Assembly (NCBI RefSeq): GCF_016595415.1
Contig: NZ_JAENIO010000022.1
Coordinates: 1 to 64,000, forward strand
DNA: 64,000 nt
Source: Roseibacillus ishigakijimensis
GTDB lineage: Bacteria > Verrucomicrobiota > Verrucomicrobiia > Verrucomicrobiales > Akkermansiaceae
Direction: 5' to 3'
The translations under genes and the position numbers were made by a program. The notes under the pieces were generated by a model. The model worked only from the letters and a program-made list of their open reading frames with translations, was not told the DNA's origin and searched no databases. Below are positions 25,694 to 27,830 of the stretch, piece by piece. How positions within the stretch are numbered: position 1 is the stretch's first letter; every line of letters starts with the position of its first letter.

Positions 25694-25853
25694 AAGTGAT
25701 TCGTCTCCTTTCTCCCAATTTGGCGCTTTAAAAAAATTTTTTCCGAAAAAAACGCAACTTCCCATTTGCAGAGGGGTTGTTCCCCCTTAGATTCCTTCTG
25801 AGCTCGCCTAGGGCTGGGCTCCGTGTGGAATCACACCATCCAACCAAAGAACT
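25694..25853. promoter_or_regulatory. Divergent intergenic region with A/T tract
   Basis: Contains TTTAAAAAAATTTTTT (25727-25742), likely curved DNA or an UP-like element, and a small hairpin GGGGttgttCCCC just downstream. It separates the minus-strand pseudouridine synthase from the plus-strand Cys-rich repeat gene and probably holds promoters for both. I could not fix a convincing -35/-10 pair. Confidence 0.35.
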
Positions 25854-26249
25854 ATGAAAGCAATCCTTACTACCCTCCTCGCTTCCTTCGCATTGACTGG
25901 CTTCGCCCTCGCTGGCGACTGCGACAAGTGCAAAAAAGGCGACAAGAAAGAAGAAGCCGTCCTCGCAGGCAAGTGCGACAAGGACAAATGCGACAAAGAC
26001 AAGGAAGAAGCCATCATCGCCGGTGACTGCGACAAGTGCAAGAAAGGCGACAAGAAGGAAGAAGCCGTCATCGCGGGCGACTGCGACAAGTGCAAGAAGG
26101 GCGACAAGAAAGAAGAAGCTCTCCTCGCTGGTGACAAGTGCAAGAAAGGTGGCTGCGACAAGGACAAGGAAGAAGCCCTCCTCGCTGGCGACAAGTGCAA
26201 AAAAGGTGGCTGCGACAAGGACAAGGAAGAAGCGGTCCTGATGGCCTAA
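25854..26249 (+). CDS. Exported six-repeat Cys/Lys/Asp/Glu-rich protein
   Basis: 131 residues. A 20-residue signal peptide ending FALA is followed by six in-frame repeats of 18-20 residues (from 25914, 25968, 26022, 26076, 26130 and 26187). Units 1, 3 and 4 read GDCDKCKKGDKKEEA plus three hydrophobics; unit 2 is GKCDKDKCDKDKEEA-type; units 5-6 are GDKCKKGGCDKDKEEA-type. Each unit has two Cys (12 in all), spaced CxxC, CxxxxC or similar. After secretion the mature protein has almost only C, D, K, E, G and A/V/I/L. No known family recognised; metal binding or redox buffering is inference. Monocistronic, with a strong terminator. Confidence 0.85.
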   Translation: MKAILTTLLASFALTGFALAGDCDKCKKGDKKEEAVLAGKCDKDKCDKDKEEAIIAGDCDKCKKGDKKEEAVIAGDCDKCKKGDKKEEALLAGDKCKKGGCDKDKEEALLAGDKCKKGGCDKDKEEAVLMA

Positions 26250-26275
26250 GCTTTTTTCTCCTACTGATTTTTTAA

Positions 26276-26308
26276 GAGCCCGTCCCGCTTGGCGCGACGG
26301 GCTTTTTT
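26276..26308 (+). terminator. Intrinsic terminator of the Cys-rich repeat gene
   Basis: Stem AGCCCGTC/GACGGGCT (26277-26284 with 26296-26303), extended inwards by CGC/GCG, followed by six T. Confidence 0.88.
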
Positions 26309-26341
26309 CATGGATTCGTTTCCAGGAGCTTTCGCTGCGTT

Positions 26342-27697
26342 TCACTCTACCCGAGGACCGCCGTCGAGGCTCCTCCCTCCTTCCTGCCCATTGCTTTCCC
26401 CGGAGTCATTGAGGTAGGATTGATCAGCGGCCGGGAGGGTGGCCCGCCACTGCTCGGCGGCCTCGCTATCGTCCCTTTTCCACCCTTCATAGACTTGGGT
26501 CAGTCCATTCTGACGTTGGTTATCGTCGAGGACCTGGCTATACCATGCGGCGGCCCGGTCATACTTGGATTGATAGATGAGGTTTTGTCCGGCGTCTTGA
26601 AAGACTTCGTCGGTCTTGAACTCGTCCCCCTGGGCTGTGAGCCATTCCGCAGCGGCGGCCTCATCCTGCCGCACCCACTGGCCGAAGGCGTCGGAGATTT
26701 CCTGGCCCGCATTCTCACTGCCGGCCAATTCCCCGGCCCGCCAATCCAAGGCGGCCTCCGGGTCGGTATTCGCCCAAGCATTGGTGATGTTCCGGCTCAG
26801 GTCCGCTTGCTCCTCGGCCGGAATGTCTCCGCTTTTCAAGAACTCCACCGCTGCCTGGGGGTCTTGCCAAGCGAGGTGGCTGACCATGGTCTCGCGAGCG
26901 GTAAGGAGAAGATCGTCGTCGTTCTTCTTGGCCAGATAGTCGAGCAATTCCGCGCGCTGGGCGGGGTCGCCGCTGGCAGACTGGGCGAGCTGGGTGATGA
27001 CCGCGCGTTGGGTATCGGACTCCATTTCATCGAGCTTGGCCATGGTGCCGGGGAAGTCTTTTTTGGCCATGGCGGCGAAATACATGGCTTCAACCTGCGC
27101 CTGCCCCATGCCCATCATCCCGCCTCCGGCAAGTTCCTCGCCATTTTCCTTGAACCAGCTGTAGGCTTGTTCGGGATCGGCCCGCATCCAGCCCATCATG
27201 GCACCCATGGCTCCCACCATCTTCAGCATCCCACCTCTTTCATCGGCGAGAACGTGCTCCATTGCGGAGGCCCCGTCCCTGGCGGCCCATCGATTGAGCA
27301 GCATCATGCGCACGGCTATGCCCTCCTGCCCCACCGTCATGTCGTCGAGGTCGGCCAACAGGGCCTGCAACTCGTAGGGCCCGAGGTATTGGACCATATC
27401 CCAGATGCCAAAGAGAGTCTCGAAATCCATCTGCGACATGGGAGAATTGCGCAGCTCTTCCAACAGGGTCTCCAGGCCCAGGCGAGGATTCTTGGCCAGC
27501 TCGTAGCCCCGCAAGTTGGGCTCGCCCAGGGCCTCGTAGCCGGAACGGGTCTGAGTGACCGCAGCGGTGCTCTGGGTTGCCTGGGAGGAAGCCTGCGCCC
27601 CCTCCTCCCCGCCGGACCCGCTCTCTTTTCCAAGAAAAAATCCGCCTACACCGGTTAGCACCGATAGGCCTGCTGCAAGGTAAACATTCTTCTGCAT
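26342..27697 (-). CDS. Membrane-anchored helical-repeat protein, unknown function
   Basis: 451 residues from ATG at 27697 (MQKNVYLAAGLSVLTG), with GGAGGT immediately before it. A short N-terminal membrane anchor (residues 5-23) is followed by a Ser/Gln-rich linker and then a long alpha-helical region with loosely repeated units containing DPxxA and a Trp (for example DPEAALDW, EAAAEWL, DPQAAVEFL). This looks like a TPR/SEL-like solenoid of a kind common in Verrucomicrobia. Probably periplasmic; no catalytic motif seen. Divergent from the moeB-like gene. Confidence 0.7.
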   Translation of the reverse strand: MQKNVYLAAGLSVLTGVGGFFLGKESGSGGEEGAQASSQATQSTAAVTQTRSGYEALGEPNLRGYELAKNPRLGLETLLEELRNSPMSQMDFETLFGIWDMVQYLGPYELQALLADLDDMTVGQEGIAVRMMLLNRWAARDGASAMEHVLADERGGMLKMVGAMGAMMGWMRADPEQAYSWFKENGEELAGGGMMGMGQAQVEAMYFAAMAKKDFPGTMAKLDEMESDTQRAVITQLAQSASGDPAQRAELLDYLAKKNDDDLLLTARETMVSHLAWQDPQAAVEFLKSGDIPAEEQADLSRNITNAWANTDPEAALDWRAGELAGSENAGQEISDAFGQWVRQDEAAAAEWLTAQGDEFKTDEVFQDAGQNLIYQSKYDRAAAWYSQVLDDNQRQNGLTQVYEGWKRDDSEAAEQWRATLPAADQSYLNDSGESNGQEGGRSLDGGPRVE

Positions 27698-27830
27698 ACC
27701 TCCGAAATATGACTGGTCCGGGACCCGGGGCCAATTCCAAAAAAGGCCGGGGATTCTTTTGCAGGCCATGACGGCATGAACCCGGCGGGGAGTTGTCAGG
27801 CAGGCGGAACGGTGGCAGCTTGCCCGCACG

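Follow-up and report, generated by a model that had tools for sequence, protein, structure and literature searches.

Among the copper-chelating bufferins, the repeat type Buf_EGKCG carries a Sec signal followed by 17-residue repeats with two Cys motifs each, and some bufferin genes form single-gene units (PMC12452194). Chlamydiae, for their part, stiffen the envelope by means of Cys-rich proteins (PMC2811131). The gene described here lies in a window of 64,000 nucleotides from Roseibacillus ishigakijimensis (Akkermansiaceae; contig NZ_JAENIO010000022.1, positions 1 to 64,000) and encodes an exported protein made of charged two-Cys units; in the literature, we found no description of such a kind of protein in bacteria, nor of its family.

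The open reading frame at 25854-26249 (+), whose coordinates and frame were confirmed on the sequence and the list of open reading frames, encodes 131 aa, of which the first 20 form the signal peptide and the remaining 111 (the mature part) divide entirely into six units (18, 18, 18, 18, 19 and 20 residues), each containing two Cys (Table 1). The signal peptide and six-unit repeat architecture are hence as the initial annotation had described them, and its count of 12 Cys in 111 residues with scarcely any aromatic also holds, as the mature part contains 12 Cys, 30 Lys, 31 Asp+Glu, and no Arg, His or aromatic residue at all. Charged residues amount to 55% with a net charge of ~0, and AlphaFold2 predicts only disorder past the signal peptide (mean pLDDT 41.6). 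At the DNA level the gene contains repeats of 54 and 57 nt, its units differ from each other chiefly by synonymous changes, and it is single-copy in its own genome (4.14 Mb, 95% complete).

Table 1. Features of the repeat gene and its flanks, in window coordinates.
Feature	Coordinates	Strand	Basis or remarks
Candidate promoter TTGCAG-N16-TAGATT	25766..25793	+	Position matches the conserved element of relatives
Leader	25794..25853	+	Across the family, final 40 nt rich in A (42%) and C (34%), poor in G (9%) and lacking a Shine-Dalgarno sequence
Signal peptide MKAILTTLLASFALTGFALA	25854..25913	+	Predicted type I cleavage ALA/GDC (cut at the slash); sequence reading; 75 relatives with the same hydrophobic N-terminus
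Unit 1 GDCDKCKKGDKKEEAVLA	25914..25967	+	Sequence
Unit 2 GKCDKDKCDKDKEEAIIA	25968..26021	+	Sequence
Unit 3 GDCDKCKKGDKKEEAVIA	26022..26075	+	Sequence
Unit 4 GDCDKCKKGDKKEEALLA	26076..26129	+	Sequence
Unit 5 GDKCKKGGCDKDKEEALLA	26130..26186	+	Sequence, DNA repeat
Unit 6 GDKCKKGGCDKDKEEAVLMA and stop codon	26187..26249	+	Sequence, DNA repeat
Intrinsic terminator	26274..26309	+	GC-rich stem 26274-26306, then T run; -21.8 kcal/mol, z -4.0

This frame is a real gene and not a chance product, because it has 75 full-length relatives (among 80 loci read), a low ratio of non-synonymous to synonymous polymorphism (pN/pS), ribosomal-protein-like codons and a strong terminator. Purifying selection is seen in the + frame, with a summed pN/pS of 0.14 and a range of 0.09-0.36 for single pairs, as measured on the few pairs similar enough for comparison. 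The relatives that were read all keep an open frame, with none of the disruption that the initial annotation had named as refuting its reading. On a ribosomal-versus-background scale, its synonymous codon score (0.157) is higher than in any of the eight neighbouring genes and falls among the values of 17 ribosomal-region genes. Of 2000 simulations with background codon usage, none came as high, a test that is overstated since the simulations take repeated units as independent while tandem copies share codons by descent. The trend is plain even so: codon usage is of the ribosomal-protein type and apparently points to strong expression.

The initial annotation had also proposed a strong terminator and a probable promoter. 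The terminator stands (Table 1), and 72 of 75 relatives likewise have a terminator-like stem within 90 nt past their stop codons. For the promoter the outcome was mixed: a strict sigma-70 consensus scan called none upstream of the gene, and a candidate is found at the position conserved in relatives. Conserved upstream elements are genus-specific, with sigma-70-like hexamers readable within them, and read GGGAACAAA...GTTCTC in genus g7 (strongly conserved; loci L034 and L092-L100), GAATAA...CTGGCGCGnCTC in g13 (strongly conserved; loci L104-L151) and ACAAAA...TTGC in g11. Each genome has about one copy of the element, located at the repeat gene, and looser matches appear at the reversed-control rate; therefore no regulon was found, and a regulon reading was rejected because the conserved promoter element is not common to other genes. 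No metal-responsive operator was identified, and a search of Rfam matched no known RNA element. One of 79 family leaders contained a Shine-Dalgarno-like motif, compared with four of 17 starts in the ribosomal region of the window's own genome, whose ribosomal genes also mostly lack one.

The gene is flanked by a pseudouridine synthase gene upstream (-) and a further protein-coding gene downstream (-). The product of the latter (26342-27829, 495 aa) contains repeated DPEAALDW/ALEW-type segments, and Pfam gave no match for it at E 1e-5. No neighbour is conserved across genera, neighbours being common only within a genus, and an operon partner was rejected since no neighbour spans the whole family. 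Layout, leader and terminator are consistent with a monocistronic, well-expressed gene.

Homologues were detected in 95 of 260 Akkermansiaceae genomes at E <= 1e-6, or about a third of those sampled; relatives were also found in 91 of 369 genomes of an order-level sample and in 17 of 388 genomes of a phylum-level sample (14 Akkermansiaceae, and three weak matches outside). The carrier genera are g1, g7, g11, g13 and g16, and carriers include Luteolibacter marinus (L070), the others being Verrucomicrobiota MAGs; genus g3, a gut-type genus with genomes of 2-3.5 Mb that we take to be Akkermansia, has no member among its listed genomes. One MAG labelled Akkermansia muciniphila (L073) does carry the gene, and this species label is doubtful because the place and score of the match equal those of a g13 genome (G529). 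A convincing full-length member that lacks the usual terminator occurs elsewhere in the order, in a family other than Akkermansiaceae (L049:3002-3469, -; genome G067). Further out in the phylum, a different family has a short exported CGKCAKKGDKTEKCEKCDKCEKK protein (L063:1426-1675, -), which may be a remote relative or may have arisen in parallel. Two weak profile matches outside Akkermansiaceae (L062 and L064) were unrelated proteins on inspection, and no plasmid copies of the gene were found. Judging from these sequences, the window protein belongs to a lineage-wide, unnamed exported repeat family; it had been presented as new-looking, which is borne out in that no named family fits it and overturned in that, with so many Akkermansiaceae homologues, it is not an isolated novelty.

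The design of the family is extreme in composition. Over 8,580 mature residues, Lys accounts for 26%, Glu for 17%, Asp for 14% and Cys and Gly for 10% each, with a single Arg and nine aromatics; the charged fraction is 0.56 and the net charge per residue -0.04 (75 members). Units are mostly 16-26 residues long, and 319 of 372 (86%) contain exactly two Cys, spaced 2, 4, 3 or 5 residues apart (mostly CxxC, CxxxC and CxxxxC). Their ends follow the pattern (T/A/L)-(L/I/V)-A, most commonly TLA or ALA, and Ala is terminal in 98% of them, a proportion that holds partly by construction since the unit-splitting rule itself demands terminal Ala; independently of this rule, the C-terminal residue of the whole protein is Ala in 73 of 79 cases. 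Members have between about 2 and 9 units, and near-identical copies occur within single genes, as would be expected from repeat expansion and loss. His represents only 1.1% of mature residues and hardly occurs away from Cys pairs, its main setting being HCGKC-n-H units: 80 of 92 His sit in HC or HCxxC-n-H settings, and a second His lies within 14 residues in 36 of 44 HCGKC units. In units of two members (L103 and L111), His stands in place of the second Cys of the pair (CDKH).

The reading that we tentatively favour, with slightly less than even confidence, is that of an apparently abundant, disordered, stand-alone, Sec-exported soluble protein that would buffer metals (soft metals of the Cu/Zn type) and thiols outside the inner membrane. 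The protein would be exported by Sec to the periplasm or just outside the cell, where each ~18-residue unit would supply one Cys pair, mostly 2-5 residues apart, the near-neutral Lys/Asp/Glu chain would keep these pairs soluble, and unit number (about 2-9) would fix the buffering capacity. The analysis itself shows the export signal (from sequence), the repeat design, the selection, the expression-type codon usage and the stand-alone gene, whereas location, abundance and metal binding are what we infer here. Among the roles that the initial annotation had suggested (metal binding, redox buffering or a disordered ionic matrix), each of which stays plausible, the His-next-to-Cys pattern seems to favour metal binding, since the clustering of His at Cys pairs, together with CDKH, suits metal ligands and not disulfides. 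Paired thiols, nearby His and a soluble zwitterionic chain would all suggest that the protein binds soft metals, thiol buffering being an overlapping alternative. Counting against a metal buffer, none of the conserved neighbours is related to metals, no metal-responsive operator was identified, other genes do not share the conserved promoter element, and His is absent from the window protein.

The main rival, which we regard as rather unlikely, is a disulfide-linked, charge-balanced envelope matrix or spacer with a role comparable to that of chlamydial OmcA/OmcB, in which Cys pairs would mesh chains, Lys/Asp/Glu blocks would form a hydrated zwitterionic layer and TLA/ALA ends would aid packing. 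The even Cys number of 58 of 74 members agrees with such a mesh, as do the variable-number tandem repeats, the apparently high expression, the stand-alone gene and the relatedness of the phylum to Chlamydiae, whose envelopes use Cys-rich proteins (PMC2811131). However, His clustered at Cys pairs and the replacement of CxxC by CxxH are unlike disulfides, and no anchor, lipobox or wall-binding domain was seen in the protein, which had no match in Pfam.

Weaker still, and quite improbable, is a polyprotein precursor, from which a protease cutting after each (T/A/L)-(L/I/V)-A would free two-Cys peptides of ~18-20 residues, possibly modified. The terminal Ala of 366 of 372 units, the resemblance of unit ends to the -3/-1 residues at the end of the signal peptide, and a protein terminus that nearly always shows the same motif could all reflect such cleavage, but identical unit ends arise from tandem duplication alone, and no peptidase or modifying-enzyme neighbour is conserved across genera. 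Signal peptidase I moreover needs a hydrophobic core in its substrate, which the charged units do not have. The MNIO enzyme family (PF05114) is missing from the window's own genome (95% complete) and from 17 of 28 carriers, which argues against the polyprotein and led us to reject an MNIO-modified RiPP as a general account. The 11 carriers that do encode MNIO (G009, G021, G039, G516, G042, G058, G027, G036, G524, G567 and G591) have it always on another contig or >200 kb from the repeat gene. Lastly, there is practically no chance that the true gene is an overlapping frame and the repeats low-complexity noise: the opposite strand has long open frames, such as a 205-aa ORF at 25728-26345 (-), but this reading is refuted by the 75 relatives that keep signal peptide, unit design, start, stop and terminator in the + frame, and by the pN/pS of 0.09-0.36 in that frame. 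The antisense open frames covering the gene (25728-26345 and 25808-26224, both -) are a by-product of its codon usage.

Returning to the favoured metal and thiol buffer and its main rival, it is possible, if doubtful, that the family represents a lineage-specific exported paired-Cys polyampholyte, serving either as an expandable, enzyme-free extracytoplasmic metal store or as a Cys-linked zwitterionic surface layer. An unmodified metal buffer would be a simpler kind of system beside bufferins and copper storage proteins, and a matrix would add to the little-known envelope of Verrucomicrobiota. In either case, an unnamed and apparently highly expressed exported family is kept by a substantial share of the sampled Akkermansiaceae genomes, and its near-absent Arg against abundant Lys, combined with Ala-ended units, makes for an extreme design that calls for a physical explanation.

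Searches of Pfam, NCBIfam and PDB yielded no fitting family, which upholds the initial statement that none matches. The closest profile likeness, a signal peptide followed by CxxC, is to NCBIfam NF041110 (HPE1_fam_CxxC, a plant virulence effector HPE1-like domain), for which the window protein scored 17.2 bits, under the curated cut-off of 45, over residues 1-51 (signal peptide and first units); this weak match recurs in 7 of 18 members. A PARP2 match in PDB (E 0.24) and a scorpion-toxin Pfam match of a single member (E 1.6e-5) were taken as matches of composition. Like metallothioneins, the protein is short, Cys-rich and Lys-rich, without aromatics and with little or no His, but it is exported and built from regular two-Cys units, whereas the metallothioneins known to us are cytosolic; Pfam metallothionein models matched neither the window protein nor the 18 members. 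It shares with chlamydial OmcA/OmcB, from a related phylum, the character of an exported Cys-rich protein, but OmcA is a lipoprotein, we know of no repeats of this kind in OmcA/OmcB, and no Pfam match links the window protein or the members to them. Bufferins come nearest in design, although the family is not classed with them because neither the window protein nor any of 18 members matched bufferin or MNIO-precursor models of Pfam or NCBIfam, EGKCG was not seen in 75 full-length sequences (GKC, EGKC and HCGKC do occur), and MNIO is missing as described above. Compared with Buf_EGKCG, the family is a Lys/Asp/Glu polyampholyte with hydrophobic unit ends in place of EGKCG pairs, and AlphaFold2 predicts disorder for the window protein rather than a beta-helix. 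Both nevertheless share a Sec signal peptide, read from sequence in 75 members here, and a nearly equal repeat (~18 residues with two Cys, against 17), the nearest described design, so that by analogy the repeat family may work like a bufferin.
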